Positions 9,806 to 26,223 of a stretch of 29,091 nt of DNA are shown here, one piece after another (within the stretch, counting starts at the first letter, position 1; each line of letters opens with the position of its first letter). The stretch spans positions 1 to 29,091 of the IMG/VR virus record IMGVR_UViG_3300008267_000425. The stretch is one strand, 5' to 3'. Source of the stretch: a virus. The translations under genes and the position numbers were made by a program. Under the pieces are notes generated by a model. The model saw only the letters and a program-made list of their open reading frames with translations, was not told where the DNA came from and searched no databases.

Positions 9806-10624
9806 CTATTTCCAGTGTTGTAAGATCAGTGGATCTTGTATGCTGTCTGGTTTGGGCTGGCCATGAAAAATCAAAATGCTGTTGTTTTTTGCCAGTTGCG
9901 TGCCGGTGCCGGGCTGACGATATATCCGTTTATGATGATCATATCCACCATCAAATGCTTGCCAACGCCAGCTGGCCACTCGCCCTACGTCAAAAAATCT
10001 GCGCTGATCGGGCAAAAAGCAATCTGTGATATAGTCTTGATCTCCACGATATTTTTTCAAAATCTGAGCAAAATCTTTTGTAATAAAATTTTGGTAGATG
10101 TGACCATGCCGGCGTGTATCCCAACGCATGACGCTGGAATTGATATTGTAGGTGGTTGGTCTCCAGAGATATTTAAAATCGCGCACTGCCCAAAAATGTT
10201 GCAGATCCAGTTGCCAAATCCAGTCAATGTTTTGTGTGATTACCACATCAAGATCAAAATACAACAAAGGTCCTGCATAGTGATCAGTGTTGAACAGTTG
10301 CATCTTGTACCACCAGGACTTTTTAGGGCCATTGATGTACCAGTCAGTGAGTCCGTGTTTGATAAAATTTTCAGGCACTGGTCGATCTGTTTCGGTGTAC
10401 ACATGCAATCTTACGCCGGGTGTGATGTGACGATTCAGCATGCTGTACAGGCGTTCTACATAGTCCCAACTGTAGACAGATCCATGTATCACACAGGCAC
10501 AATCAATTGGGCCCGATTCTGGCAGTTGATTGCGTTCAGCATTCAGCGATTGTCTCAGAGCTTGTCGTGCCGCAGGATCATGCGCGGCCGCCAATTTAAG
10601 AGCTCGTTTGGTATTTTTATCCAT
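9806..10624 (-). CDS. Glycosyltransferase, GT-A type with DxD
   Basis: A 272-residue protein. After a helical first 40 residues it shows the Rossmann-like start CACVIHGSVYSWDYV (42-56), a strand with LHVYTETD and the metal-binding LYFDLDVVI with D124 and D126. These are features of GT-A enzymes that move a sugar from a nucleotide donor. SSVMRWD and DQDYI segments in the second half are typical of acceptor and donor loops in GT8-like families. Donor and acceptor are unknown. The start overlaps the end of the gene at 10617 by 8 nt. It is the most downstream gene of the left arm of the glycan module. Confidence 0.75.
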   Translation of the reverse strand: MDKNTKRALKLAAAHDPAARQALRQSLNAERNQLPESGPIDCACVIHGSVYSWDYVERLYSMLNRHITPGVRLHVYTETDRPVPENFIKHGLTDWYINGPKKSWWYKMQLFNTDHYAGPLLYFDLDVVITQNIDWIWQLDLQHFWAVRDFKYLWRPTTYNINSSVMRWDTRRHGHIYQNFITKDFAQILKKYRGDQDYITDCFLPDQRRFFDVGRVASWRWQAFDGGYDHHKRIYRQPGTGTQLAKNNSILIFHGQPKPDSIQDPLILQHWK

Positions 10625-11486
10625 GATTGCGTTGCAAGGCAGAAGACAAGCGAGTCAACCAACGACCTTGCGCTATTTCTTCAACTGTGTATTCGGTATG
10701 ACAAATTTCAACCAGCCACTGATCACGATCTACTGTATAGGGCTGATCAATGTTTTCTATTTGTATGCTCACAGGATGGGCCAGACTGCTGACATCCACA
10801 ATGGGTCTGGTTCCTGCAAGTGCGGCCTGTATGCCAGGGCCTGAATTGTGATTAACGATGGCATGGCAGTCAAAGGCCAAGTTGTAGCTGTCATAGGTGT
10901 TGTCTATTTTCTGTGGTTGCTCTATGATGACGTCCTTGGGCAAGTGTACCAGTCCGGCCCAGTCCAATGCACTTCTAGGGTGTGGGCGTACTACGATGGG
11001 ACGATCAGTGACTGTGCGTAGTCGTTCTACTTGTTGGACGACCCAACCTTCCATGCTGACCAGGCCCACTACTTGGAGACTGCGGGCATGTTGTGCGGCT
11101 ATCACAATCCGGGGATTACGGGTCAAATTGAGGGCCAGACTTATGCCCAGGTGTCTGGGGCGGTTCCAATCCAAGTTTTCTGTGTGTCCATAGTACCCGT
11201 CGGCTGTTATTGAGTTTACAGCTATCTTCCAGGTTTCACCGCGGTACAAGGCACCCACATCTATGACAATGACTGGCCGGCCCAGGCTTCTATAGTGACT
11301 CCAAACTGCCTGATTGGCGGCCATGCGTCCTGACCACAATACTGACCATATGATTGCCGCATCCGCGTCCCAACTGTTTTCCTGGGTGCTTATGCCAGCA
11401 TTGCGCAAAGAGTCCAGCATGGCACCCATCACAGGCACACTGTTCTTGGCACACTGCAAAGGAAAATAGGCCACCGATTTGATCAC
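10617..11486 (-). CDS. GT-B-like glycosyltransferase, paralogue A
   Basis: A 289-residue protein, one of five related proteins in this window. The shared features are TDRPIVVRPHPR (near 160), a C-terminal donor-site-like NHNSGPGIQAALAGTRPIV and DRDQWLVEICHTEYT. This arrangement resembles capsule-type (Kps/CDP-glycerol transferase-like) GT-B enzymes, where the RPHP and S-x-E/A-A-x2-G-x-P segments bind the nucleotide sugar. The start is set at GTG 11486: the longer frame to 11528 would cross the start of the divergent plus-strand gene. The two start codons are then 12 nt apart, with no clear ribosome binding site for this one. Confidence 0.65.
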   Translation of the reverse strand: MIKSVAYFPLQCAKNSVPVMGAMLDSLRNAGISTQENSWDADAAIIWSVLWSGRMAANQAVWSHYRSLGRPVIVIDVGALYRGETWKIAVNSITADGYYGHTENLDWNRPRHLGISLALNLTRNPRIVIAAQHARSLQVVGLVSMEGWVVQQVERLRTVTDRPIVVRPHPRSALDWAGLVHLPKDVIIEQPQKIDNTYDSYNLAFDCHAIVNHNSGPGIQAALAGTRPIVDVSSLAHPVSIQIENIDQPYTVDRDQWLVEICHTEYTVEEIAQGRWLTRLSSALQRNHG

Positions 11487-11492
11487 TAAATA
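11485..11492 (+). promoter_or_regulatory. Late promoter box (ACTAAATA) of the plus-strand glycan operon
   Basis: CTAAATA core 6 nt before the ATG at 11499, the same spacing as at 3097 and 3062. It overlaps the start codon of the divergent gene. No ribosome binding site lies between box and ATG. Confidence 0.45.
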
Positions 11493-11498
11493 TCCATT

Positions 11499-12344
11499 AT
11501 GAAATATACAGTAATTACCTCGTTTCACGAGGAGGGTCTAAAACAATATGGCCAGCGCATGATCCGTACATTTGAACAGCACTGGCCTGCCGAAGTTGAC
11601 TTGATTGTGTGTGCTGAAAACTGCCAACCCGAAGTTGTCAGAAGCAACAGTCATGTGTACGATCTCATGCAGGTCAGCAACAACTGTAGGGCCTTTGTGG
11701 AACGACACAGAAACAACCCCTTGGCACACGGACAAGCTGGGCCGCCCGAAGTTTGGAATCCCAAAAAGGCCTTTAGATGGCATGCTGTAAGATTTGCCTA
11801 CAAGGTATTCAGTGTGGCCTTGTGTGCTGACAATCTCAGCTCGGGCTGGATGATCTGGTTGGATGCTGATACCCATACTCACAGTCCTGTGCCGGTAGAA
11901 TGGTTGAGCAAAGTCTGTCCCGAATCCGCTATGATCAGCTATCTAGGACGTGGTGAAAAATATCACAGTGAATGTGGATGGGTGGCATACAATTTGGACC
12001 ATCCAGAAACCCGTAACTTTATCAGAGATTTTGTTGGCATGTACAACACCGATCAAATCTTTAAAGAACGTGAATGGCACGACAGTTATATCTGGGATGT
12101 TGTACGCAAACAATATCATCTAACCAATAATTTTTTTAATCTCAACCCGTCGTGGACAGACAAAGGCCTGGCTGGGCATCCGTTTATCAACAGTGAACTA
12201 GGTCTATACATGGATCATGTCAAAGGTGACAGGAAAAATCATGGTCACAGCAAGCCCAAAGAAGTGATCAGTCACCCCGACCATCCTTATTGGCAAAGAG
12301 TACTCACACAACCCAAAGTAAATTTTAATCTGGACAAAGACTAA
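11499..12344 (+). CDS. Glycosyltransferase, GT-A type with DAD
   Basis: A 281-residue protein starting MKYTVITSFHEEGLKQYGQR, with the metal- and donor-binding motif WMIWLDADTH (D122 and D124) and a downstream SECGWVAYNLDHPETRNFI acceptor-side region. It is the first of four plus-strand genes inserted head-on in a minus-strand block, and its stop is followed after one base by the next ATG. A late box lies 6 nt before the ATG and no Shine-Dalgarno sequence is visible. The sugar and acceptor cannot be told; by position it works with the adjacent FkbM methyltransferase and two GT-B-like enzymes. Confidence 0.75.
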   Translation: MKYTVITSFHEEGLKQYGQRMIRTFEQHWPAEVDLIVCAENCQPEVVRSNSHVYDLMQVSNNCRAFVERHRNNPLAHGQAGPPEVWNPKKAFRWHAVRFAYKVFSVALCADNLSSGWMIWLDADTHTHSPVPVEWLSKVCPESAMISYLGRGEKYHSECGWVAYNLDHPETRNFIRDFVGMYNTDQIFKEREWHDSYIWDVVRKQYHLTNNFFNLNPSWTDKGLAGHPFINSELGLYMDHVKGDRKNHGHSKPKEVISHPDHPYWQRVLTQPKVNFNLDKD

Positions 12345-12345
12345 C

Positions 12346-12996
12346 ATGTACCAAACTCACGGCTGGTGGTTTCCAGATCAAGACACGCATTTTGCTGGCA
12401 TGCTGGCAAAGAATATCAAAAAGGGCGGAGGTGCCGCTTATCAAGAGCAGGCACGACAGCGCAGCATTGCACTCACACCCAACAAAGGCATTGCCGTAGA
12501 CATTGGTGCCAATGTGGGACTATGGAGTCGAGACCTAGCACAGTGCTTTACTCAGGTAATCGCGTTTGAACCCGTGGCTGATTTTAGAGATTGCCTACGA
12601 CTCAATGTTCCCAGTGCCAATCTAGAAATACGCGAGTGTGCTCTGGGTCGAGAAGACAGCATGATTGACATGAACATAACCTTAGAAAATACCGGACACA
12701 GTCATGTCAACCCTACCACCATGGGTCTCGGAACTATTCCCATGTACCGGCTAGATCATTTGAACTTGCCCAAATTTGACTACTGTAAAATTGATTGTGA
12801 AGGTTATGAATATGAGATTCTGTTGGGCGCAGAACAAACCATACGAACATCGTGTCCTGTTATGGTAGTTGAACAAAAATTACACAAGGACACAGGTATT
12901 ACCAAACATACTCAATATGACGCAGTGGATCTGTTGAAAAGTTGGGGGGCCCGAGAACTTGATCGAGTTCGCAACGACATAATTCTAGGATGGTAG
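12346..12996 (+). CDS. FkbM-family SAM-dependent methyltransferase
   Basis: A 216-residue enzyme that most likely O-methylates a sugar hydroxyl. The SAM-binding motif I is VDIGANVGLWS (51-61), followed by motif II IAFEP, and the FkbM hallmark FDYCKIDCEGYEYEIL (near 145-160), where the acidic pair and Gly contact substrate and SAM. Length fits the family domain. It is the second gene of the plus-strand operon, one base after the glycosyltransferase and 4 nt before the next gene. A second FkbM-type gene lies at 18097-18687 on the other strand; the two are not close copies. Confidence 0.85.
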   Translation: MYQTHGWWFPDQDTHFAGMLAKNIKKGGGAAYQEQARQRSIALTPNKGIAVDIGANVGLWSRDLAQCFTQVIAFEPVADFRDCLRLNVPSANLEIRECALGREDSMIDMNITLENTGHSHVNPTTMGLGTIPMYRLDHLNLPKFDYCKIDCEGYEYEILLGAEQTIRTSCPVMVVEQKLHKDTGITKHTQYDAVDLLKSWGARELDRVRNDIILGW

Positions 12997-13000
12997 TTAG

Positions 13001-14089
13001 ATGCATGGTATCTTGAATTACGAAGAACTTGTGGCACCCTTGGCCGATCGGATCTTGATAAGACATCTTAAAAAATCTGTGCATATCGACTGGACTATTA
13101 CCACAGCTTATCTCAACAGTTGCCAACAAAACTTTGAACAAACCAGACTGTTAAACATTGATTTCAAAGTGGTACAACAAAGCCTACATGAAGATCTCAA
13201 AGTGTGGAAAAATCGTGTGGTCACTGAATACAAAGATCGGTACCGAAAACTGATCAACTGGTTGTCGGAAAATCTGCACGAATATGATCTAGATCGTGAT
13301 TATCTGATAGAGTTGTGTGTGACCGATCCTCGACTGACTTTTGTCAAAACCATAAGCAGACAATTCAACAAAGGCGAACCCACGTGGGCCTTGCAAGGAG
13401 AACAGGTTGATACCAATGAACCTGTGCTGTTGCGTAATATACTGGGCAACGAACTGCTGATCCAGGACCGGTTGACCCATGGCAAACCCATGTGGTTTAT
13501 TGATTCTGGTTACACAAATTTTCTCACCGGTAAAAAAACCTGGCACAGGTTGGTCAAAAATCACACGCATCATGACATCATGGAGCAACAATTTCCAGCT
13601 GATAGATTGGGCATGTTTACAAAATTTCCTGAGACTTGGCGGACCGGTGGAAACAAAATTCTTGTGGTCGAAAGCAGTGAATCACACTACAAAATGCAGG
13701 ACACCTGTTTGGCTAACTGGCGATATCAGCTGCGTAAAACACTACAAAATCTAACCGATCGGCCGATTGAATTCAAAAGCAAGACTACATCAAGAAAAAC
13801 TCGTGTCACGGTGTACCAACAGTTGAAGGACAATCCAGATGATTATTATTGCGTGATCAGTGACAGCAGTGTTGCCGCCATTGAAGCGATCTGGTTGGGC
13901 ATACCTGTTATTACCCTTGGACAACATATATCCGTGCCTGTGGCCAGGACCAAAATTGAAGACATCAATGATCTGTATCGTGGTCCCATTGGTGATTGGT
14001 TGTGTGCTCTAAGCTATTGTCAATTTACCAAAGTCGAAATGCTCAATGGCACAGCTGCAAAAATCACAAAGAAATTTTATCATGTATGA
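13001..14089 (+). CDS. GT-B-like glycosyltransferase, paralogue B (long form)
   Basis: A 362-residue protein, the longest of the five related GT-B-like proteins. An extra helical N-terminal part of about 120 residues (MHGILNYEELVAPLADRILI...) precedes the common core. The core has FIDSGYTNF and KNHTHHDI, then LTDRPIEFKSK, ISDSSVAAIEAIWLGIPVIT and WLCALSYCQFTKVEM, all of which match paralogue D (14991) most closely. The basic RPHP motif is changed to FKSK, so the phosphate-binding site differs from paralogues A and C. It overlaps the next gene by 8 nt. Confidence 0.65.
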   Translation: MHGILNYEELVAPLADRILIRHLKKSVHIDWTITTAYLNSCQQNFEQTRLLNIDFKVVQQSLHEDLKVWKNRVVTEYKDRYRKLINWLSENLHEYDLDRDYLIELCVTDPRLTFVKTISRQFNKGEPTWALQGEQVDTNEPVLLRNILGNELLIQDRLTHGKPMWFIDSGYTNFLTGKKTWHRLVKNHTHHDIMEQQFPADRLGMFTKFPETWRTGGNKILVVESSESHYKMQDTCLANWRYQLRKTLQNLTDRPIEFKSKTTSRKTRVTVYQQLKDNPDDYYCVISDSSVAAIEAIWLGIPVITLGQHISVPVARTKIEDINDLYRGPIGDWLCALSYCQFTKVEMLNGTAAKITKKFYHV

Positions 14090-15002
14090 TGTTGTGGTAT
14101 ATCTCAGTAGCCTGCCCAGGATTGCAGATCGCAATCGCAAAGTCGAGGTGTTACGAGCATTTGCTGAAGGTGCTCAGGCACAAGGTGCCAGTGTATTGGT
14201 ACAAACACAACCACAAGTGGTGGATTGCCGGCTGGCTGTAATTCTAGGCTGGGTTGGCACTAAAATTCGTGGACCCCACATACAGCTCAGACGTGATGTG
14301 ATTGATCATCAACTGCGTACCAAACAACATGTCATGCCCATTGACGCCAGTTGTTTTAAATTTGTAGATACCGACAGCTATTTTTTGCGTTACAGTCTTG
14401 ATGGAGTATTTTACAACACCAATAATTATGCCAATGCCCACAGTGATAATTCTAAATGGCAACAGATCCAACGCAAACTCAATCTTGATTTAAAACCCTG
14501 GCGAGCCAATGGAGACTATGTGTTGGTGTGTTTGCAACGTGATGGCGGATGGTCAATGAAAGGCACTGACATGGTTGAGTGGACTAGGCAAACTGTACAA
14601 CGTCTACGGTCAATTACCAACAGGCCAATTTTGATTCGGTCGCACCCCAAACACAAAATAAATTTGTCAGAATTAACCAGTTTGCCTGGAGTAAGTGAAA
14701 GCGTCAACGCAAACACATTACAACAAGATCTATTCAATGCCTGGGCCGCAGTGTTCTGCAATAGTTCCAGTAGCGTAGCGGCTGTGTTGGCCGGCATACC
14801 TGTGTTTGCCGATGATGATGATTGTGTGGCATGGGCCGTGGCCAATAAAGATCTGGCACAAATTGAATCACCTGCTATGCCAGATCGAACTCAGTGGCTC
14901 TATGATCTCAGTGCCGCACACTGGACTGATAACGAAGCACGCAACGGCATGATCTATCAACACTTTTTGCCTTGTTTAGAAAACACCCAACTAACTGTTT
15001 AA
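14082..15002 (+). CDS. GT-B-like glycosyltransferase, paralogue C
   Basis: A 306-residue protein, ATG at 14082 inside the end of paralogue B. It carries the shared core: VILGWVGTK (near 62), TNRPILIRSHPK, NSSSSVAAVLAGIPVF and DRTQWLYDLSAAHWT. The IRSHPK segment keeps the basic and His residues of paralogue A. An upstream in-frame ATG at 14046 was not used because the family starts with the strand YDVVVYLSS. It is the last gene of the plus-strand operon; its final 12 nt overlap tail-to-tail with paralogue D on the minus strand, and no terminator is visible between them. Confidence 0.65.
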   Translation: MYDVVVYLSSLPRIADRNRKVEVLRAFAEGAQAQGASVLVQTQPQVVDCRLAVILGWVGTKIRGPHIQLRRDVIDHQLRTKQHVMPIDASCFKFVDTDSYFLRYSLDGVFYNTNNYANAHSDNSKWQQIQRKLNLDLKPWRANGDYVLVCLQRDGGWSMKGTDMVEWTRQTVQRLRSITNRPILIRSHPKHKINLSELTSLPGVSESVNANTLQQDLFNAWAAVFCNSSSSVAAVLAGIPVFADDDDCVAWAVANKDLAQIESPAMPDRTQWLYDLSAAHWTDNEARNGMIYQHFLPCLENTQLTV

Positions 15003-15839
15003 GATCCTCCAGGCAGTGCCGTCACTCATTTCTGTAAAGGTAAATTGACTGTAACTGAGATGTCGTAGCCAAGCTTCTCTGAGATCGTCATCGGGAAAAC
15101 TTAATTTTTCTACATCACTGATCTGACTGTTAGATACTACTGTGGCTGCATTGGGTCCCAAAGTGATAGCTGGTTTGCCCAACATCACAGCTTCTACAGC
15201 AGACACGCTGTTGTAGGTGACCAGGCAATACACATCATCGGCCAAGGCTTCTTCCATGGTATTCTCTGTCATGCGTTCGGCTCTGGATCGTTTGAGTCGG
15301 ATTTCAATGGGTCGATCCGTGTGTTGTCTAAGGTGAGCCACAGTTTCTGCTACCCATACTTCTGGATCCATGCCCCACAAGCTGAGACTTTTCTGACTGG
15401 GCGGAGCAATCAAAATTTTACTGCCAGAGCTTTTGGGTTTAAGGCGGATAAAACAACGGGCCAGGCGATCTCCAGGACGTTCAATGATAGCACGTATATC
15501 ATGCACGTGATTTTTGATAATCCTGAAATAAGTTTTGGCTTGCCCATTGCCTATATATCCATTGTCAATGTAATAAAAAGTACGACCATCACGCCAACAG
15601 TCATTGACTCCGGCTGTGAATTTCATACCACGTATGTGCCAAGGATTGGTTGTGGGATACTGCATGGCTTCGTGATAGCTGACCAAATGACTGGGGTGAC
15701 CAGATGTCACAGCTCCGGCCATGAATCTATCCACAAAGGCTGCTTGCCTGGGCTTGACTGGTTGATCATGCAGTTTGCGATTGATGCACAACAGATCCGT
15801 TGGTCCTATCTCTGGACGGATTGGTATGTCTATTTTCAC
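14991..15839 (-). CDS. GT-B-like glycosyltransferase, paralogue D
   Basis: A 282-residue protein starting at GTG 15839, which overlaps the TGA of the upstream gene. Core motifs are YIDNGYIGN and KNHVHDIR, then TDRPIEIRLKRS, TYNSVSAVEAVMLGKPAIT and WLRHLSYSQFTFTEM. The Y/FIDxGY and KNHxHD segments are shared only with paralogue B, so B and D are sister genes on opposite strands, consistent with duplication followed by inversion. Probably transfers a sugar from a nucleotide donor; no donor can be named. Confidence 0.65.
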   Translation of the reverse strand: MKIDIPIRPEIGPTDLLCINRKLHDQPVKPRQAAFVDRFMAGAVTSGHPSHLVSYHEAMQYPTTNPWHIRGMKFTAGVNDCWRDGRTFYYIDNGYIGNGQAKTYFRIIKNHVHDIRAIIERPGDRLARCFIRLKPKSSGSKILIAPPSQKSLSLWGMDPEVWVAETVAHLRQHTDRPIEIRLKRSRAERMTENTMEEALADDVYCLVTYNSVSAVEAVMLGKPAITLGPNAATVVSNSQISDVEKLSFPDDDLREAWLRHLSYSQFTFTEMSDGTAWRILNS

Positions 15840-16522
15840 TCAATCCTCTGTTGACAATATTCAGTGAACATGCGTTCTTTGTGCCATTCTTCAGCCTGAG
15901 GAGTATCAGCGAACTCGTGGAAACAAGGCGTGCCCAAGGTATAATGCAACAGTTTGGCATCAGGATTGACACCATACTCGTCGGGCAACCAGTTCCATTC
16001 GGGTGGTAGCTCACCGATTCGCTTGTCGTCCAGCCAGCTAAATCTATGTAATTCAGCGCCAGTGGCACGTTGAACAAATTCTGGTGTGAGTTTTCTATTG
16101 GGCCATGAACTACAGTTCCATAGGATCACACTACTCCAGTTCTTTCTTGGATAGTCTTCGTTTTTGCTGCCTAGATACTTTTCTGTCATTTTGGTCTTGT
16201 AATCGTGTTTGACCACAAATACATCAGCATGATCCTCATTTCTTATATTCCACAGTTTTACAATATCATCACGCAGGATCATGTCCCCGTCGATGAATAT
16301 GGCCCATCCTGTGTAACTCATGAGGTGTGGCACCAAGAATCGTGTATAGATAAAATGATTGCTGCCATCAGTGTGTGTTTCTTCATAATCTCGGAACAGA
16401 TTTAGTGCCACGGGCACAATGGCCACAGGTTGACTGGCATGACGAATGATACTGTTCACACAGGTATGAAACGCTATGGCTTCTCGGGGATCATAACCAA
16501 CAAATACCGGAATCGGTGTCAT
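15836..16522 (-). CDS. Glycosyltransferase, GT8-like
   Basis: A 228-residue GT-A type enzyme. It begins PVFVGYDPREAIAFHTCVNS, has a short acidic metal-binding triad FIDGDMI (DGD at 78-80) and a C-terminal LLHYTLGTPCF that matches the HxxG...K/P metal and diphosphate motif region of GT8-type retaining transferases. FIYTRFLVPHLM just before the DGD motif is the usual conserved helix. It overlaps the NT-cupin gene by ATGA and paralogue D by GTGA, so all three are translated together. Confidence 0.8.
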   Translation of the reverse strand: MTPIPVFVGYDPREAIAFHTCVNSIIRHASQPVAIVPVALNLFRDYEETHTDGSNHFIYTRFLVPHLMSYTGWAIFIDGDMILRDDIVKLWNIRNEDHADVFVVKHDYKTKMTEKYLGSKNEDYPRKNWSSVILWNCSSWPNRKLTPEFVQRATGAELHRFSWLDDKRIGELPPEWNWLPDEYGVNPDAKLLHYTLGTPCFHEFADTPQAEEWHKERMFTEYCQQRIE

Positions 16523-17286
16523 TGTTGTCTTTCGATATCCAATTCTTCACACTGGGTACCAAATTGTATCTCTACTACTTTGAGTGGAACCTCATGTTCG
16601 TTACGCAATTGATGCCATTGACGATTGTCGACCCAGACATGGCCGTGCTGGTTGACCACCGCCATGAGTTCAAAATCACTTTTGACGTTCAAAGTATACA
16701 CGGTGGCAGTGCCTGATGCTACAAACCAAAATTCACTGCGTTGATTGTGTCGTTGCATGCTGAGCCATTTGCCTGGCGCCACGGTGAGTTCTTTGACCTT
16801 GAGCGTGGATGCGACGGAATGTAGGACACGATAGTATCCCCAGTCGCGATCAGTTCTAGGAGATTTCCACTCTTCCAAGATCCATGAGCTGGAATTGGCT
16901 TTGTTGTTGCCGCCTACACCAAAATCAAAACGCAGATTGAGGTCTAACAAGTCCATTTCTGGAATGTTTTGTTTTGTTCGATCACCGCCATTGGCAAATA
17001 TAATATGATCGTGCGGATAAAGTCGTCGGACATGATGGACGGCCATTTTTGCACTGTTGTCGCTGTCATCAAATTTGATTACTTCATCAACACAACGCAT
17101 GGATCGTAACACTGCTTCGCGCTCACTGAACGGCATAAAAGCCCGTCCTTTTTTGCGGATCAGCCATTCATCTGAATTTAAACCCACTATCAAAATATCA
17201 CCTAGTTTTTTAGCTGCTTCTAGGTAAGCCACATGCCCGCTGTGAGCAGGATCAAATCCACCAGTTGCCAAAACGATTCTTTTCAT
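16519..17286 (-). CDS. Nucleotidyltransferase-cupin fusion protein
   Basis: A 255-residue two-domain protein. Residues 1-135 form a cytidylyltransferase-like domain (HldE C-terminal/TagD type): TGGFDPAHSGH (8-18, with the HxGH motif), SEREAVLRSM (near 55) and NGGDR (near 99). After a linker with WGYYRVL, residues about 150-245 form a cupin like the C-terminal domain of type II phosphomannose isomerase (LSMQRHNQRSEFWFVASG). It may activate a sugar phosphate to a nucleotide sugar and bind or isomerise a sugar in the cupin. The ATG is 5 nt after a GATAAATA late box and has no Shine-Dalgarno sequence. I do not know this fusion from a characterised enzyme. Confidence 0.8.
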   Translation of the reverse strand: MKRIVLATGGFDPAHSGHVAYLEAAKKLGDILIVGLNSDEWLIRKKGRAFMPFSEREAVLRSMRCVDEVIKFDDSDNSAKMAVHHVRRLYPHDHIIFANGGDRTKQNIPEMDLLDLNLRFDFGVGGNNKANSSSWILEEWKSPRTDRDWGYYRVLHSVASTLKVKELTVAPGKWLSMQRHNQRSEFWFVASGTATVYTLNVKSDFELMAVVNQHGHVWVDNRQWHQLRNEHEVPLKVVEIQFGTQCEELDIERQQ

Positions 17287-17291
17287 GCTGA

Positions 17292-17299
17292 TATTTATC
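17292..17299 (-). promoter_or_regulatory. Late promoter box (GATAAATA)
   Basis: One mismatch to TATAAATA, 5 nt upstream of the nucleotidyltransferase-cupin ATG. It lies in the 20-nt gap after the stop of paralogue E. Confidence 0.6.
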
Positions 17300-17306
17300 T
17301 GGGCAG

Positions 17307-18095
17307 TTAATGTCGCAAAATTTGATACTGTTCTACCAGTTCTGCGGGCACAGCAGTTTCAAATTCTGCACGATTGAATTGACTCCAGCAGATGTGTTCC
17401 CACCAGGCAGTACGATCAGGCCGCAGAGGTGCGGCCAAGTTTTTTATGCTGCCCACTAACAAGGTGCTCATGCTGGCATCCACAGTAAATCCGGGCACGC
17501 CCAACAGGCATGCTTCCACAGTGGCCATGGTACGCTCGCCAATGACCGCATGAGCTGTAGCCAATTGTTCAACAAAACTGTCAAATCTTCCCGGTTTGGC
17601 GCCGCCACGTTTTTTACGCCAGTGTATGGGCCCAGACCAGTAAGGTTGTATGGCCAGAGTCAATCGATCTCTAAACTGCTGTAAATTTTCGCCGGTTCGT
17701 TGCAACAGGATTTCTTCCACAGGTTGTATGCCAATCACGTATTCACCTGCGGTGTCACGCCAGGGCTGATGTGACGGAACTGGAAACAAGTCAACGCGAC
17801 TGTAAGGCACTGATCGCATGTGTATGTTGTGGTGTCCACAATAGGTCACTCGGCGTGTTTCTCTTCTGGGTGTGTCGGGGCCCCAGTAACCGTACTCAAT
17901 TTCTATCCAGGGTCTGCCTTCTGCGATGTATTCTTTCAAGGGTGACCACCAGGGTGCAAAATGATTGGCTATCAATACATAGGTATCTGGCACATCGGCC
18001 ACACGATCAAAGTATTCTAGTCCACGTTGTTGCCAAGGAGCCAGTGCCCAACTGGGACCTTCTCCGGGCATGTCTCGGGCAAAGGCGTATTTCAT
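17307..18095 (-). CDS. GT-B-like glycosyltransferase, paralogue E
   Basis: A 262-residue protein, the most divergent of the five. Shared core features are PIHWRKKRGG (the basic segment near 175), GERTMATVEACLLGVPGFT and DRTAWWEHICWSQFNRAEF. The N-terminus, MKYAFARDMPGEGPSW, is Trp- and Pro-rich and resembles no other member. ATG 18095 is used; it follows the upstream FkbM stop after one base, and the longer TTG start at 18110 would lie inside that gene. The Asn/Ser before the S/T-x-E-A motif of other members is replaced here by Glu-Arg-Thr. Confidence 0.6.
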   Translation of the reverse strand: MKYAFARDMPGEGPSWALAPWQQRGLEYFDRVADVPDTYVLIANHFAPWWSPLKEYIAEGRPWIEIEYGYWGPDTPRRETRRVTYCGHHNIHMRSVPYSRVDLFPVPSHQPWRDTAGEYVIGIQPVEEILLQRTGENLQQFRDRLTLAIQPYWSGPIHWRKKRGGAKPGRFDSFVEQLATAHAVIGERTMATVEACLLGVPGFTVDASMSTLLVGSIKNLAAPLRPDRTAWWEHICWSQFNRAEFETAVPAELVEQYQILRH

Positions 18096-18096
18096 G

Positions 18097-18687
18097 TCAG
18101 TGCCACTCAACCAAGTTTATGTCATAGGATTGTATGATAGATCTTAGTTGTTGTTCTTTTTGTAACAGTTCTACATCGTTGATCATAGTCGCATGCCATT
18201 CTACATACAAATGATTGATCCAATTCAATACTCCTAAATCGTGCATGTGTTCCAGGACCTGATACTCGGCTCCTTCTATGTCTAACTTGCACACAATAAA
18301 ATCGTCTAAGGCACAGTTGTTTTTGATCCAATGGGCAAAATCTATACAAGGTACTATGCATTGTTCTTGAAATGTACCAATGTGTGGACCTGCTTGCCAG
18401 CGATCAAGTTCTAAAATACTACTGCCTTGTCCTATAGGTGCCAGACCTTTTTGATATTTGGTTTCAGCAGTTTCTATATTGAGTGTTATGTCACCAGAGT
18501 GGTCAGACAAGGCTTGATTGTAACTGTTGATCCAATTCAAGTTGTTTTTGGCTGTGTATTTGGCATGCGTATAAGGATTGGCTTCCCAGGTATGCACCAA
18601 CCAGGTGTCATCCACAGCATGGTTACGCATAATCTGCTTGAGTCCTTGCCCTAAATGTGTGCCGCCGTCTAGTAAAAATTTACGCAT
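18097..18687 (-). CDS. FkbM-family methyltransferase
   Basis: A 196-residue SAM-dependent O-methyltransferase. Motif I is LDGGTHLGQGL (6-16), a variant shared with the methyltransferase at 20185, followed by HTWEANP and the FkbM signature FIVCKLDIEGAEYQVLEHM (near 130-148). The start at ATG 18687 overlaps the previous gene by 8 nt and matches the family N-terminus. It probably methylates a sugar made or transferred by the neighbouring enzymes. Confidence 0.8.
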   Translation of the reverse strand: MRKFLLDGGTHLGQGLKQIMRNHAVDDTWLVHTWEANPYTHAKYTAKNNLNWINSYNQALSDHSGDITLNIETAETKYQKGLAPIGQGSSILELDRWQAGPHIGTFQEQCIVPCIDFAHWIKNNCALDDFIVCKLDIEGAEYQVLEHMHDLGVLNWINHLYVEWHATMINDVELLQKEQQLRSIIQSYDINLVEWH

Positions 18688-19336
18688 GATACGTGGCACT
18701 TAACTGTTGAAAACTATGTTTGTACTTGCGATCACCTTTGCCGGTCCAGATATAACTGTCTGCGGTCATTTTAAAATCACTGTAGCGTCGATCTTGCTCG
18801 GCAAATATGCCTGCATCCAACAAACGATCCATTTCAATTTGATCCTGATACCAGGTCAATTCTGGTAATGCCAACAAAGCGTTTCTCAAATCATGTCTGG
18901 CACGATCTGGTGCAAAGCCTACAGCACTGCCCAGGCTTCGTTGTTCACGTTTCTTGGCTGTGGTTACCCAACTGTGCTTCATATCTATATCAAAATGATC
19001 CTCTGGCAAGGCTTGTGCAAATACACTGTCGGCATCTATGCTGATAACCGGTGTTGCATCATCGTACAGCTCGGGCAATCTGACAAATCGCATGTTTACC
19101 CAATAACCGCAACGGCTGTCTTGATCTGTGTATTGCGGTGGAGTAGGTTCTGCAGTGACCGAACACGCATAATCCTGGGCCCACTCTAAGTCACAAGCTG
19201 TGGCATCAAATATGTGCAAATGCGTATGAGCCCATGGTGCATGCTTTTTGGCACTGAGCACAAATGTCTTGGCCAAGATTTCAAAATACCCATGATCACA
19301 GGCCAAGTAAAATCCTTTCTTGTTGACCTTAGTCAT
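18680..19336 (-). CDS. Glycosyltransferase, GT-A type with DAD
   Basis: A 218-residue protein. It starts MTKVNKKGFYLACDHGYFEI, has a central ISIDADSVF (D101 and D103) for metal and nucleotide sugar, and QDQIEMDRLLDAG in the C-terminal part, similar to the QDxI...N/D region of GT8-like transferases. The start at 19336 overlaps the previous gene by 8 nt; a longer frame to 19369 would reach further into that gene. No donor can be named. Confidence 0.7.
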   Translation of the reverse strand: MTKVNKKGFYLACDHGYFEILAKTFVLSAKKHAPWAHTHLHIFDATACDLEWAQDYACSVTAEPTPPQYTDQDSRCGYWVNMRFVRLPELYDDATPVISIDADSVFAQALPEDHFDIDMKHSWVTTAKKREQRSLGSAVGFAPDRARHDLRNALLALPELTWYQDQIEMDRLLDAGIFAEQDRRYSDFKMTADSYIWTGKGDRKYKHSFQQLSATYHA

Positions 19337-20177
19337 GCAACACTCCGGTGTTGGCAAACACTTCAGCAAATCTACTGAAACTGCTTTTGACCGTAAACTG
19401 TATGGTAGTTTGGCTTAGTATCAGCATGTCTACAAAAGCTTCAATCACACTTTGTCTTGGACGATCGATATTGTAGTTGTATCTACGTCCATCGGCATCC
19501 ACGGTTTCTGCACGCCAATCGCCATCAATCAACTTGCCGACATAACTGGTTTTGGGCCAACAGCATACATTGGGCAAGGTTGCAAATCTTTGTTCTGTAG
19601 CCTGATCGTCGCTACAAACAAAATATCTTTGGCCCGGGGCGGCTTGGACTCGTTTGAATAATTTTCCTTCGTCCAGCTTGTAGTTCTCAGTTTTTCTAAG
19701 ATGCAAGCCCGTAACCGATTTGTTGATCTGATTGCGTTTGCAGAATTCTTGTACCTGTTGTTTGATCGAGTCTGCAGGCCGTAGTTGGTTAGCCATGCTC
19801 CAGACCAATTGCATGTCCATGTAAGGTGCTATTTTGTTGTGATAGTACACTATGGAGTTGGGTATCTGTGTCAGACAATCTAGTGAGTCTCCGGACTGTG
19901 GCAATATCAAACCTAGATCTGCACCAGTTTGATTTTCATGTACAACAAAGGCCTGGTCAAAGCCGGCCACAAAGATGTCATTGATAGATGAACTGACGAT
20001 TTGAAATTCTTGATTGGCAAACAGGTCTTGAAAATAACTACCGCACCAATTATTGGATGGCCAGCACACTGTGATATCACGGGTACCCACATGATTGGCC
20101 ACATACAGTCCTCCAACCAGACTACCCAATCTGTTGCCCAGGCCTCCGTCGCAGAATATTGTAACTTGTCTGCTCAT
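19329..20177 (-). CDS. Fucosyltransferase-like glycosyltransferase
   Basis: A 282-residue protein with the N-terminal donor-site start CDGGLGNRLGSLVGGLYVA (9-27), the GGxGNR motif of GT11/GT23/GT65-type fucosyltransferases. It continues with VTGLHLRKTENYK (near 155, the H-x-R that binds the GDP diphosphate), YFVCSDDQATEQRFA and a C-terminal SSFSRFAEVF. These match the conserved order in alpha-1,2-, alpha-1,6- and O-fucosyltransferases. It likely uses GDP-fucose or a related GDP-sugar. No GDP-fucose synthesis genes are in the window, so the donor would come from the host or from elsewhere in the phage. Confidence 0.7.
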   Translation of the reverse strand: MSRQVTIFCDGGLGNRLGSLVGGLYVANHVGTRDITVCWPSNNWCGSYFQDLFANQEFQIVSSSINDIFVAGFDQAFVVHENQTGADLGLILPQSGDSLDCLTQIPNSIVYYHNKIAPYMDMQLVWSMANQLRPADSIKQQVQEFCKRNQINKSVTGLHLRKTENYKLDEGKLFKRVQAAPGQRYFVCSDDQATEQRFATLPNVCCWPKTSYVGKLIDGDWRAETVDADGRRYNYNIDRPRQSVIEAFVDMLILSQTTIQFTVKSSFSRFAEVFANTGVLHD

Positions 20178-20794: not shown

Positions 20795-21577
20795 CTATTT
20801 ATAGCTTGTAACAGACCGTTGATTCTTGTTGATCAGCGTTTGATTATAACTCAGCAAAGACCTGGTGGCTGCTGGATCAATTCCTGTGGATTCAGCCCAG
20901 GCCAACCAGGCATAAACATCTTTGGGGAGACACTTGGAATTCACGCCGCGCTTGTCGGGATAAACAAATGTCCACCAGAGATTCATCCTAGGATCATCTC
21001 CGTAAACTGCATCTCTGATGGTGTAATAGTCTACACCGGCGGCCTCACAAGCATCATACAACTCTTGGCACTGTAACACTTTGTAAAAAATAGCACGATT
21101 TTCTGACAGTTTGATTATCTCCGCTTCTAAGTTGGTCACCTGTCTGATAGACACATTGGCATTGTACACTGTGGTATAACATTCAATGACCTTGCGTCGG
21201 TCTTGGGCACTGCCGCCTAGTATGATGAAGTCGCGATGCCGCATGTTCAGCGCAGGGTGAGACGGAGTTTCTCCTAGATATTCGGGTTGGACCACTATGC
21301 GTTTGTGATATTTTTTGGCCATGGCATCAGCAAATCCTGGTTGTGTGGCCGACCGAATAACAATCAAATCTGCGCGGCAATTTGCTATGGCATGTTCAAC
21401 TTCAGTGCCATCCAGAGTGTGTCCGTTCCACGGAGTGGGCACTGCCAAGAATGCTATGTCACACGGAGGCAAAGGATTTTTAAATTCCTCTATGTAAACA
21501 TCATGTATGTGTGCATCTGGAAACAGGGCATGGGTGGCCTTGCCTACCCATCCGTATCCAACAATTCCTATGTTCAT
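20795..21577 (-). CDS. UDP-glucose/GDP-mannose dehydrogenase-like, C-terminally short
   Basis: A 260-residue NAD-dependent enzyme of the family that oxidises UDP-glucose or GDP-mannose to uronic acids. It has NAD motif IVGYGWVG (5-12), FLAVPTP (43-49), PEYLGE (98-103, catalytic Glu), the EAEIIKLSEN helix (151-160, Lys and Asn of the active site) and SKCLPKD (214-220, nucleophile Cys216). The catalytic set is present, but the protein ends about 40 residues later; the C-terminal nucleotide-sugar-binding domain of usual 390-450-residue members is missing. ATG 21577 is used because it begins the Rossmann strand MNIGIVGYG; the longer frame to 21679 overlaps uvsY. Confidence 0.8.
   Translation of the reverse strand: MNIGIVGYGWVGKATHALFPDAHIHDVYIEEFKNPLPPCDIAFLAVPTPWNGHTLDGTEVEHAIANCRADLIVIRSATQPGFADAMAKKYHKRIVVQPEYLGETPSHPALNMRHRDFIILGGSAQDRRKVIECYTTVYNANVSIRQVTNLEAEIIKLSENRAIFYKVLQCQELYDACEAAGVDYYTIRDAVYGDDPRMNLWWTFVYPDKRGVNSKCLPKDVYAWLAWAESTGIDPAATRSLLSYNQTLINKNQRSVTSYK
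20796..20803 (-). promoter_or_regulatory. Late promoter box (TATAAATA)
   Basis: Perfect octamer overlapping the stop codon of the dehydrogenase gene, 8 nt upstream of the ATG at 20787. It could drive the downstream glycan genes (20787 to 17307) late in infection, independent of the uvsX/uvsY operon. Confidence 0.7.
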
Positions 21578-21582
21578 AAGCG

Positions 21583-22035
21583 TTAAACTGTTATGTCTTC
21601 CATACCAGCAGTGCGTAAGCGCACCACATGACCCATCTGCCACTGTTTGGTATCCAACCCTTTCATGATGCCTAACCAACGGTTGCGTAGCAAGGCCACT
21701 TCATTGATTATGGTTTCAAAGTCGATCACTTCATCTTCGCCGTCTACATACTTTTCAGCATCTCTACTGGTCAGGGCTCTAGCATAACCTTCTAGATATT
21801 TTTGAAAATATCTACGACGGATCTTGCGCAGTTGTATGTTGAGATAATTCAACACAGCTTCTATTTCTTGTAGCTGATTGAATCTATGTTCGGTGATACC
21901 AGGCAAGGCTGTGATGTTTTTTTCCACAAGACCGCCAATGCGGCATTCAATCTTGGCTGATTCCAGCTCGGTTTCGTAGTGTGCTATAAAGTCTGGAATA
22001 GCACCAAGGTTGGCTACAACTTTACTATACCACAT
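21583..22035 (-). CDS. uvsY: Recombination mediator, UvsY-like
   Basis: Mediator that helps UvsX displace gp32 and load on single-stranded DNA. The 150-residue helical protein is close to T4 UvsY in length (137) and has the same layout: a basic helix (LRKIRRRYFQKYLEGYARAL, near 70-90), then an acidic stretch and the C-terminal self-association region with LLRNRWLGIMKGLDTKQWQM. Identity is by layout and by being in the same operon as uvsX and gp32. AAGG lies 7 nt before the ATG. Sequence similarity to T4 is low, so a search is needed to be certain. Confidence 0.65.
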   Translation of the reverse strand: MWYSKVVANLGAIPDFIAHYETELESAKIECRIGGLVEKNITALPGITEHRFNQLQEIEAVLNYLNIQLRKIRRRYFQKYLEGYARALTSRDAEKYVDGEDEVIDFETIINEVALLRNRWLGIMKGLDTKQWQMGHVVRLRTAGMEDITV

Positions 22036-22044
22036 ATAATGCCT

Positions 22045-23196
22045 TCATGTTAGATTTAACCATTGTAACATACTTAGCGGAAAGATGTCAAGCGTGAGAT
22101 TCCTTCGCTGAGCATATTGGCTGAGATAACTGGAAAGCTGTTGTCGTTGCAACTCTGAGCAAGGTTTCATCATGGTTGTTATAATACTGTCTTTGAGTCG
22201 GATACTGCTGTTAGAGATTGAGGTGGCCAAGTTGTTTTTGGTTTTGTCGTCCAGCACATTGATGCTCAAATAAATTGGGTCGTTGCAAAAATTATAAAAT
22301 GAAACTTGATCAGCGAATTGATCAACAAAATCAACTATGCCATGTATGGTCAAATTACTCAGTACCGATGAAAATTTCACAGTCATATGGCCTTGCAGTA
22401 TTTTTAAATTTTCTAAAAATTTTTGATATGTGTTGTTGTATCTGGTAAATTCGTACAAGCGATCACAAGTTTCAGCACTGATCACGGCTGTGATTTTTTC
22501 CTTGTGTTGTATACGATCAAGTTGGGCAATCAGTCGTCGGCCATCGACACCTAGCCCTGTATAAAACAATAAATTTTCATTGTCTGACAAACTGTTTAAC
22601 AAATCAGGAAACCCGTTGTATAAAAAAGGTTCGCCTCCGTCGATCACAATTTCTTTGAGATTTTTGTAGTTGGATAATTCTTTAACAATGATATCAAAGC
22701 CTTCGGATTGTTCGTGTTCGGGTTGGCTTATGCGAGACAGGATTTTATCCAAGGGCACCAAATTAAATCTCGCACTGTCAAAATATACTCCGTTGTTTTT
22801 TATATCTCGAGTCCAGGCAGTGCTGTACTGTTTGCAACAATACACGCAGGTGAGATTACAAGTTGATCCCAATATAATGTTCAATTTCCCAGGGTCAACT
22901 GTTTTTGTATCAGTGTGAGTTAAATTGTAAGTTTTGTGTAGAGTTCGCGGGCTTTCTAGTCCCTGTGATTCAGGAGTCCAGCAGGCCTGTTGACAACTGG
23001 CCACTGGTTGGTTGTCCAACATGTCTTGCCTTTCCTGTTGCAGTTTAAGGCTGTTGAACAACTGACCAGGATTGTCCTTTAGCCAGTCCAAATCAATTTT
23101 TTCCGGAACCGCGGAACAACAAGAATACAGTAATCTTTTTTCTAAATCAACGCTGAGACTGGTGAATTTTTGACTGCAATAAAAATTATCAACCAT
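22045..23196 (-). CDS. Radical SAM protein with N-terminal cysteine domain (1)
   Basis: A 383-residue enzyme that should cleave S-adenosylmethionine with a 4Fe-4S cluster. The radical SAM motif CNLTCVYC is at C113, C117 and C120, with IDGGEPF (the GGE SAM-binding motif) near residue 200. An N-terminal domain contains C7, C26/C27 and CQQAC (C68, C72), resembling the N-terminal twitch-type domain that may hold an auxiliary cluster. The motif MLDNQPxxxC is shared with the enzyme at 24518. ATG 23196 is used; a longer frame would run into the acidic gene. The substrate is unknown. Confidence 0.8.
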   Translation of the reverse strand: MVDNFYCSQKFTSLSVDLEKRLLYSCCSAVPEKIDLDWLKDNPGQLFNSLKLQQERQDMLDNQPVASCQQACWTPESQGLESPRTLHKTYNLTHTDTKTVDPGKLNIILGSTCNLTCVYCCKQYSTAWTRDIKNNGVYFDSARFNLVPLDKILSRISQPEHEQSEGFDIIVKELSNYKNLKEIVIDGGEPFLYNGFPDLLNSLSDNENLLFYTGLGVDGRRLIAQLDRIQHKEKITAVISAETCDRLYEFTRYNNTYQKFLENLKILQGHMTVKFSSVLSNLTIHGIVDFVDQFADQVSFYNFCNDPIYLSINVLDDKTKNNLATSISNSSIRLKDSIITTMMKPCSELQRQQLSSYLSQYAQRRNLTLDIFPLSMLQWLNLT

Positions 23197-23204
23197 AGAA
23201 GTTA

Positions 23205-23453
23205 TTAGTACTCGTCGTCTTCCTCTTCTTCCCAACTGTCGTCGTCGTCTTCCTCTTCTTCCTGATCTTTGAGATAGTGGGCTAGAGCACGCTTTACTTC
23301 CGTATCGCTTTTGAAAGTTTCTTTGATCTCATCGGCTGCTACATCGTTGTCAATCAACACCGATACCAAGGTTTCTGCGGCATCGTTGCGATCCACAACA
23401 TTTACGTAACGTTTGAGTTCGTTCCAAATTTCTCGGCTTAGTTCTGCTGACAT
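23205..23453 (-). CDS. Small acidic conserved protein downstream of uvsX
   Basis: An 82-residue protein: a helical part (REIWNELKRYVNVVDRNDAA; VSVLIDNDVAADEIKETFKS) and an extremely acidic tail (last 20 residues almost all Glu and Asp). Similar small proteins sit next to uvsX in marine T4-like phages; the function is unknown. The acidic tail could mimic DNA or bind a basic partner such as UvsX, UvsY or gp32, by analogy with the acidic tail of gp32. GGAGG is 8 nt before the ATG, and the stop is 3 nt after the uvsX start region's upstream gene boundary. Confidence 0.7.
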   Translation of the reverse strand: MSAELSREIWNELKRYVNVVDRNDAAETLVSVLIDNDVAADEIKETFKSDTEVKRALAHYLKDQEEEEDDDDSWEEEEDDEY

Positions 23454-24517: not shown

Positions 24518-25690
24518 TTACTTTCCTTCTTTAAGTTTGTATAATTCTGTAAAAATTTTACTGCTGTCTACTCCACGACGCTGATCCATTTCCCATAACT
24601 TTTCAAATGATCTTTTGAGATTTTTCTCAAAAGGCGTTTGGATATAGTTCAACATATTCCGATAACTGTCTTCTAATAGATATCCAGGTGACTCGGATAT
24701 TTTATCTTGCAGTTTGTGTTCAAGTAATTTTAACACATTTTCTGGCAGATTCCTAATGTTTAGGTATTCTGGACCCTGGGCCTCTGGACCCAAAAGAGCT
24801 CCAATGACAAAACTGTTGTTGTGGAATCCAATCTGTTTTAGGTAATCAACACAGTCAAATATGGAATCATAGTTCAACAAAAACCACAGCATGTTAAACG
24901 ATATTTTGTGTTCCAGTTGCGTGATTGTTTGTAGGTTGTCCAAAAAGTCCCTCCAGTGGGCGCCAAATCTAATATACTCAAACTCCTGCGCCAAAGATTC
25001 CACACTCACGGTCCAATGCACATTTTTAAACTCACATATGGCTTCAAAAACCCGAGTATCTGTTTTGCTGAGATTGGTATTGACTCGCAGATTTACTTCT
25101 GGGTTGACCTGTTTTAGCAATGCCAACAACTCCAAATTTTCCTTCATCAGCAAGGGTTCGCCGCCGGCCATGTACACATGCTGTAGAGTAGACGCATGAT
25201 CAAATATGTATTTTTTGAACTCGTCGACCTGTGTCTGAGTAGGACGAACCATTGCTGTGCCTAATTCATCGGCCCATCGGCTACTGAATGCAGGACCACA
25301 ATACACACATGCAAAATTACACAGGTTAGTCCAACGTACATCTATGGTATGCAGGTCATGTTGTCCAAGTTGGTAGGTCGTCAATGGCACCTGTTTCAAC
25401 TCACGTATGTAAAATATTCTATCACTAATGATGTCAAAGCCTAATTTTTTGTTTTCAAGACTGTAACAAGGGTGGCAATCCTGACCGGGTTGATTGTCCA
25501 GCATGCGTTGTTGTGTGTCCAGATTGGTTGGCCCATGCAAGATGTCCTGTATGGGATGATCTTGAATATTACCCAGGTGCCCGGCACTGCGAATGCAGTT
25601 TTTCACCCGGCCATCTGTGTTGTACATGAGACCAGTCCAAGGCAAAGGACAAAAGGTGCCACCGGTCAGTATTTGTTTTGGTGTGATCAT
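24518..25690 (-). CDS. Radical SAM protein with N-terminal twitch-like domain (2)
   Basis: A 390-residue enzyme. The SAM/4Fe-4S motif CNFACVYC is at C124, C128 and C131, with MAGGEPL (GGE motif) near residue 160. The N-terminal domain FCPLPWTGLMYNTDGRV has C14, C32 and the pair C72/C75 (CHPC), spaced as in N-terminal twitch radical SAM proteins. The same cysteine pattern is in the enzymes at 26220 and, with changes, 22045. It starts at ATG 25690, overlapping the SDR stop as ATGA, so the two are translated together. Its stop is 2 nt before uvsX. Confidence 0.85.
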   Translation of the reverse strand: MITPKQILTGGTFCPLPWTGLMYNTDGRVKNCIRSAGHLGNIQDHPIQDILHGPTNLDTQQRMLDNQPGQDCHPCYSLENKKLGFDIISDRIFYIRELKQVPLTTYQLGQHDLHTIDVRWTNLCNFACVYCGPAFSSRWADELGTAMVRPTQTQVDEFKKYIFDHASTLQHVYMAGGEPLLMKENLELLALLKQVNPEVNLRVNTNLSKTDTRVFEAICEFKNVHWTVSVESLAQEFEYIRFGAHWRDFLDNLQTITQLEHKISFNMLWFLLNYDSIFDCVDYLKQIGFHNNSFVIGALLGPEAQGPEYLNIRNLPENVLKLLEHKLQDKISESPGYLLEDSYRNMLNYIQTPFEKNLKRSFEKLWEMDQRRGVDSSKIFTELYKLKEGK

Positions 25691-26223
25691 GGTCCAATAC
25701 TTATTTCCGGTATGCACAATTTATTTTTTGTTGCTAGATTTAAAATTTCTACCAAGGTGTGAGCCCAGTTGTTGACATCGGCCGCTGGCGGCACTGTTTT
25801 GTCTGCACTGGTGGCTATATTGCCTGGACGAACTATGGTAAATGTTATGCCTAGTTCACGATTGCGCAATTGTTTTACTGCCTCCTCCAGTGCAACTTTT
25901 TGTATTCTATACTGATCCATTTCCAATCCTGGCAAAGGGCTGATTGGATACTGTGTCATTTGTGTGCTGACAATCACCATGTGTTTGCGTGTTCCGGACC
26001 ATCGTTTGGCCATTTCAAACACCAGTTCTGTTTGTGCGTAGCCAGCTTGAGCATTGTTCACAAACATGTCACAGGATTCAATCTGATCACATATCTTTGG
26101 AATGTTGCGTATGTTGTTGCCTTCGCGTTTGCTCAGGCCCACAATTTCGTGGCCCAATCTTGTGTATTGTTCAGCAAGTGCCTGCCCGATGCCTGCGGTA
26201 TGACCAGTGATTGCAATTTTCAT
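25687..26223 (-). CDS. Short-chain dehydrogenase/reductase (SDR), short form
   Basis: A 178-residue NAD(P)-dependent oxidoreductase. It has the cofactor motif TGHTAGIG (6-13), NNAQAG (56-61, NNAG variant), a candidate catalytic Ser in IVST (86-87) and YxxxK at Y105 and K109. It is about 70 residues shorter than usual SDRs (250), having lost parts of the Rossmann strands after residue 40. ATGA overlaps link it to radical SAM genes on both sides, so it probably acts on the same substrate as they do. Confidence 0.8.
   Translation of the reverse strand: MKIAITGHTAGIGQALAEQYTRLGHEIVGLSKREGNNIRNIPKICDQIESCDMFVNNAQAGYAQTELVFEMAKRWSGTRKHMVIVSTQMTQYPISPLPGLEMDQYRIQKVALEEAVKQLRNRELGITFTIVRPGNIATSADKTVPPAADVNNWAHTLVEILNLATKNKLCIPEISIGP

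Follow-up and report, generated by a model that had tools for sequence, protein, structure and literature searches.

Why does a T4-like phage hold five divergent glycosyltransferase-like genes side by side within 8 kb? The question is raised by a virus record of 29,091 bases (IMG/VR IMGVR_UViG_3300008267_000425), the whole of which is called the window here. It is a T4-like fragment with replication genes for a primase, a UvsW-type helicase, UvsX, a single-stranded DNA-binding protein and a partial DNA polymerase. A dense block of sugar genes, bounded by the UvsX side and by an AAA-like gene of PHROG 1250, contains all five paralogues, named A to E below. Our studies place them in one old family under purifying selection, support a GT-B scaffold like that of retaining Kdo (3-deoxy-D-manno-oct-2-ulosonic acid) transferases, and show that the catalytic Asp of those enzymes is gone from all five. 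The open reading frames (ORFs), each open and intact, are:

10617..11528, minus strand: paralogue A, predicted GT-B, 303 amino acids; constant cassette member, in 15/15 contigs with both flanks
13001..14089, plus strand: paralogue B, predicted GT-B, 362 amino acids
14082..15002, plus strand: paralogue C, predicted GT-B, 306 amino acids; an alternative ATG is possible at 14046
14991..15839, minus strand: paralogue D, predicted GT-B, 282 amino acids
17307..18095, minus strand: paralogue E, predicted GT-B, 262 amino acids

Homology and predicted fold

The original prediction, made from the sequence alone, was that these are five divergent genes of one GT-B-like family. Homology was demonstrated by using D as the sole query, which retrieved the other four in the window (best E 4.6e-29, 1.4e-9, 4.1e-7 and 3.9e-4), and by pairwise BLAST and phmmer searches, which connect A to E as homologues. 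For the two weakest pairs (A-B and C-E) the direct comparison is not significant, and the connection runs through other members. Together with the intact ORFs, these searches bear out the claim of a single family, and the motifs named in the prediction are present in the family alignment. None of the five is assigned to a family by Pfam, PHROGs or NCBIfam. B and D had been called sisters, and they are the most similar pair, at 35% identity; the tree, however, groups D with a sixth paralogue that is not in the window (D2) and resolves the position of B only weakly.

The fold was examined by modelling D and E separately with AlphaFold2 (AF2), D from an alignment of 101 sequences, a set that omits two fusions of ~550 amino acids and some near-duplicates, and E from 70 rows. 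The pLDDT (predicted local distance difference test) values were 95.7 and 91.3. In VIA-align searches, the top 15 rows for each model were all KpsC, WbbB or KrkA, with Z of 10.0-11.4 for D (next row 8.6) and 8.8-11.4 for E (next row 7.0). The best Foldseek rows were KpsC for D (3.3e-5) and KrkA for E (4.5e-5), with two unrelated-named glucosyltransferase structures among the first seven rows for D. The two models reach the same solved structures, that is, they do not fall into unrelated folds. A search of the BFVD viral structures with D returned proteins of phages and, from Tetraselmis virus 1, proteins with a capsule annotation.

Profile comparison with the family alignments gave the same link. 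Aligned by hhalign to Capsule_synth alignments built from alphaproteobacterial genomes, the family scored probabilities of 81.6-96.4 in 6/6 comparisons, while 10/10 unrelated ortholog alignments built identically scored 0.0-1.2. At the gathering cut-off of PF05159 (Capsule_synth) there was no match among the five paralogues or elsewhere in the window, and 4/101 relatives match it weakly at E <=0.01 (best 5.3e-5). Searches of PDB sequences with five-row, 101-row and 24-row alignments gave nothing significant; the best row was WbbB, at E 0.46 (101-row) and 0.52 (24-row). KpsC (GT107), WbbB (GT99), KrkA (GT140) and PF05159 are thus the best structural or profile match and are like the window paralogues in their GT-B fold. 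Taken together, the models of D and E, the fold searches and the profiles support the predicted assignment of the five paralogues to GT-B glycosyltransferases on a scaffold like that of the retaining beta-Kdo transferases (GT107/99/140), with A, B and C assigned by homology.

Active-site motifs

In the available text of two reports, the Asp of a QXXXD motif is where retaining Kdo transferases form a covalent adduct, and they bind CMP (cytidine monophosphate) via (K/R)XHP (PMC12887879, PMC9587256); the first of these, in the same available text, describes their double displacement as so far unique among glycosyltransferases. Among the 208 complete members of the family, the QXXXD Asp column holds Asp in a single one, from phage ct7QV12, and in none of A-E. 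A and C share the Gln and (K/R)XHP with KpsC, WbbB and KrkA: A keeps the Gln, with Asp replaced by Ser, and RPHP in 46/46 complete orthologues, and C keeps the Gln, with Asp replaced by Gly, and RSHP in 28/28. In hhalign the Gln of C is set upon the Gln of QXXXD. B and D have neither QXXXD nor HP (FKSK and RLKRS, respectively), and their Asp column is His or Tyr in 25/25 and Ser in 26/26. E likewise is without HP (WRKKR) and has no aligned Asp in 38/38; its Gln lies one column off the alignment's Gln, and the residue at +4 varies, being Glu in the window. HP occurs only in A, C, the C-like clades H, I, J and K, ct7QV12 and one CcrSC copy. A control set showed QXXXD and then (K/R)XHP in 12/20 Capsule_synth loci. 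The window paralogues therefore differ from KpsC, WbbB and KrkA in the Asp nucleophile (all five), in HP (B, D and E) and in having no Pfam match. Because a residue that defines Kdo transferases, the Asp nucleophile, was looked for and is absent, the five paralogues are not filed in that family.

A second acidic position is retained. The column of an N-terminal (D/E)xG(Y) segment holds an acid in 206/208 complete members, and this segment may resemble the D/E-D/E-G motif of sialyltransferases. QXXXD is seen in the genome-derived relatives L093, L094 and L095, the last of which also has HP. In a quick Capsule_synth-rooted tree, with SH-aLRT support only, ct7QV12, L093 and L095 lie at an unresolved base, and the derived part of the tree contains three distinct clades (A, C and the B/D/E group). 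Based upon this order of clades, which is read from long branches, the motifs appear to have been lost stepwise. It was also proposed in the original prediction that the genes serve different donors or acceptors. This is plausible because the active-site motifs are clade-specific, near-invariant within clades and different between them. A nucleophile-less family kept in parallel copies on a Kdo-transferase scaffold would show how double-displacement chemistry is gained or lost.

A cassette with constant ends and a variable middle

Four viral-contig scans yielded 212 family members (198 complete) on 70 viral contigs. Since the family itself served as the query, copy numbers in these contigs are biased towards carriers. 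The tree was built from 124 representatives (85% identity) of the 208 complete members, 14 partial members being omitted, and contig members were given clade labels by best BLAST to anchors chosen from it. In this tree, A-E are separate clades with long stems. The full set of five orthologues occurs in 13/70 contigs and is arranged in every one of them as E, D, (D2), B/C pair, A. The ratio of nonsynonymous to synonymous substitution rates (dN/dS) was 0.046-0.271 in 15/15 comparisons, indicating purifying selection on each paralogue. Neither a local expansion in one phage nor rapid change, both of which had been proposed, agrees with these results: the paralogues are old, and what varies is the set of middle members carried and the presence of the cassette itself. 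The other genes of the block in the window are as follows:

9806..10624, minus strand: GT8a, GT8-like glycosyltransferase (PHROG 1962 glycosyltransferase, 1.4e-18); constant cassette end; overlaps A
11499..12344, plus strand: orf11499, GT-A-like by eye, with a DxD-like motif; without family match
12346..12996, plus strand: FkbM methyltransferase (TIGR01444 2.3e-24; PF05050 1.8e-14)
15836..16522, minus strand: GT8b, GT8-family glycosyltransferase (PF01501 1.2e-7); overlaps D
16519..17286, minus strand: fusion of an HldE/GCT-like nucleotidyltransferase (PF01467 2.7e-14) and a mannose-6-P-isomerase-type cupin (PF01050 4.1e-21), here HldE-cupin
18097..18699, minus strand: second FkbM methyltransferase (PF05050 6.6e-9)
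18680..19369, minus strand: GT-A-like ORF by eye, with a DxD-like motif; without Pfam match
19329..20177, minus strand: NodZ-like fucosyltransferase candidate (PF05830 E 0.0013, below the Pfam cut-off)
20795..21679, minus strand: UDP-glucose/GDP-mannose dehydrogenase-like (PF00984 5.7e-11; PF03721 1e-7)

The HldE-cupin protein matches TIGR02199 at 2e-21, which is under that family's cut-off. The same fusion (window 16519-17286) was also seen in several phages without the paralogues.

The cassette occupies one fixed site beside uvsX. Fifteen contigs contain both flanks, and A, GT8a and HldE-cupin are each present in all of them, orf11499 in 11/15 and GT8b, by label, in 14/15; in the remaining contig, L086, the ORF at the GT8b position is a fusion labelled D. 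The middle is made up of B/C/D/E, C/D3/E/F, G/H, I, J or K/X. A comparison of copy number among relatives had been suggested with the original prediction; the two-flank contigs have 2-6 family groups each. When 15 larger records were searched whole, each record's matches were confined to one stretch.

A second sample was drawn with the flank genes and is not carrier-biased, though it favours short gaps and needs both flanks in one fetched stretch. Among the matches listed, 35/44 two-flank loci had a short gap and no member, and the other 9/44 had two or three members. Room for the cassette beside the PHROG 1250 gene, which has no assigned function, is weakly DnaC-like and served as a positional marker only, was present in 54 loci among the matches listed; GT8a and A were both there in 22, neither in 32, and one alone in 0/54. 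The cassette is absent from most relatives among the matches listed in this sample. With its fixed site, constant ends and swapped middle, it forms a phage parallel to bacterial serotype loci.

Rearrangements within the cassette were also observed. Single ORFs of ~550 amino acids fuse GT8b to a D-type paralogue, D3 (L080 10987-12636 and L086 11688-13328), and a 547-amino-acid phage protein in BFVD resembles them. One contig group has the B-C pair reversed at the same place, with the pair's neighbours unturned (window 13001-15002 versus L074, L071 and L024), and the strand of the pair relative to A/D is opposite in 16 contigs and the same in 8. A phase-variable switch acting through the inverted pair was considered but is disfavoured by orientation, which does not vary among the diverged contigs of one group. 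Phage records searched at the DNA level with the GT8b-HldE stretch gave no match.

What the cassette may build

Based on these observations, we favour, at roughly even confidence, a diverged and possibly inverting set of cytosolic GT-B enzymes of one old family, working in a phage cassette for oligosaccharide assembly whose target would be the host surface. The HldE-cupin fusion would make or activate a sugar-phosphate, the GT8-like (GT-A) enzymes and the GT-B paralogues would add residues one by one, and FkbM would O-methylate or cap the chain. Loss of the Asp nucleophile and retention of the (D/E)xG(Y) acid together suggest that transfer may be direct and inverting, using that acid. Hydropathy averaged over 19 residues does not exceed 1.6 in any cassette protein, that is, evident membrane segments are lacking, and the genes scanned gave no match to a flippase or polymerase family. 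For these reasons, residues would probably be added to an existing acceptor that is in the cytosol or faces it. The most likely one is a precursor of a host surface glycan such as the lipopolysaccharide (LPS) core. The altered surface glycan would then change the receptor for competing phages. Since the ends are constant and the middle is swapped, HldE-cupin, GT8b, A and GT8a could provide a shared core and the middle genes variant outer residues.

The host surface is favoured because the gene set is of LPS type and because such sets have been read this way in pelagimyophages. In the available text of PMC7029224, LPS-type genes of those phages (GT8, rfaE, UDP-glucose dehydrogenase) are interpreted, by inference, as modifying the O-chain. 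As far as that text goes, the pelagimyophages and the window are both T4-like with GT8, rfaE-like and UDP-glucose dehydrogenase genes. Many of the pelagimyophage genes lie in the host-recognition (tail-fibre) region, with GT8 dominant, whereas the window's group has a fixed uvsX-side site and 2-6 paralogues of a GT-B family that the available text does not name. In the literature on phage and virion glycosylation, on phage FkbM-glycosyltransferase-uvsX and on phage KpsC, we found no paper describing this gene set.

More speculatively, and with clearly less confidence, the locus may be a serotype-like phage glycan locus in which a QXXXD+HP ancestor lost first its nucleophile (A, C) and then its CMP-binding motif (B, D, E), yielding a new inverting family with new donors and a swappable oligosaccharide. 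The QXXXD+HP state is still seen in phage ct7QV12 and one Pelagibacterales gene.

Several points weigh against a host-surface oligosaccharide made by inverting GT-B enzymes. Foldseek TM-scores are modest (0.27-0.53 for the Kdo-transferase rows and top neighbours), and domain orientation therefore differs from that of Kdo transferases. The case for inverting transfer comes from sequence comparison. The T4-type late-promoter motif does not separate early from late expression, its count being no higher than expected by chance (equalled in 16 and 33 of 100 shuffles). Lastly, homologues in CcrSC, ct7QV12 and G550 adjoin virion genes, which fits virion glycosylation better.

The latter, in which the cassette would glycosylate capsid or tail-fibre proteins and not the host surface, is the strongest alternative, and we regard it as possible but doubtful. 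Three unrelated phages or prophage-like loci have structural genes next to family members that are accompanied by GT8b, FkbM or orf11499 relatives. In Caulobacter phage CcrSC, two members follow the tail genes. Phage ct7QV12 has one near terminase/head genes and a gene annotated as tibC glycosyltransferase, together with an orf11499 homologue (34%), and in genome G550 two members, along with relatives of GT8b and FkbM, lie close to a Phage_capsid gene. The lack of evident membrane segments would suit this alternative as well. However, the cassette is surrounded by replication genes, not structural ones, in the group to which the window belongs, and there are relatives outside phages, on Pelagibacterales chromosomes.

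The paralogues could instead be true retaining transferases of beta-Kdo or another ulosonic acid, using CMP-sugars and double displacement. Their closest solved structures are such enzymes, and the Gln and (K/R)XHP persist in A and C. Nevertheless, replacement of the essential Asp in all five, with the further loss of HP from B, D and E, makes this improbable, and a CMP-sugar synthetase (PF02348) was found in 0/10 records with the family, although the host could supply the sugar. We consider it slightly more improbable still that the nucleophile-less copies are catalytically dead scaffolds for the remaining transferases. The lost residues and the GT8b-D3 fusion would fit such a role, but not the near-invariant, clade-specific motifs around the nucleotide site, the conserved acid, the purifying selection or the keeping of several paralogues in parallel. 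DNA glucosylation as in T4 is suggested by a T4-like phage with many glycosyltransferases beside uvsX, but it is very improbable, given that the FkbM, GT8, rfaE-like and UDP-sugar dehydrogenase set resembles surface-glycan loci and that PF00303 (thymidylate-synthase/dCMP-hydroxymethylase) was found in 0/10 records, in a search that covered this hydroxylation route only and in which Mosig, CcrSC and ct7QV12 were complete records and most other viral contigs fragments.

Further relatives make the favoured oligosaccharide-assembly hypothesis testable, since homologues occur in the cultured Mosig, in Caulobacter phages and on SAR11 chromosomes. Pelagibacter phage Mosig EXVC030M (MT647606) shares relatives of orf11499, GT8b and GT8a with the window (33, 44 and 30%). 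Its cluster differs in having only two, very diverged, family members with an annotated sulfotransferase between them, and no match to HldE-cupin. The Pelagibacterales homologues belong to the same family as the window paralogues but are mostly single-copy, with a main group without HP; a match was found in 62/162 genomes searched. A class-wide draw gave matches, some weak, in 13/385 genomes. One chromosomal Pelagibacterales cluster (L293 4703-10115) has GT8b-, D-, orf11499- and C-like genes around a tetratricopeptide repeat (TPR) protein and is placed between purH and thioredoxin/Lon-domain genes. A single-copy homologue (L295 9366-11587) adjoins purH and lies between two 2-oxoglutarate-Fe(II) (2OG-Fe(II)) oxygenase genes, possibly forming a hydroxylation-plus-glycosylation pair.

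Outside the sugar block, three ORFs (window 22045-23235, 24518-25717 and 26220-27095) are interleaved with the uvsX and gp32-like genes. Two are radical-SAM (S-adenosylmethionine) genes with Pfam support, one of them with a SPASM match as well, and the third is similar-looking and Cys-rich but without a radical-SAM match. A sulfotransferase-like gene with a weak Pfam match (window 27076-27744) adjoins the gp32-like gene.

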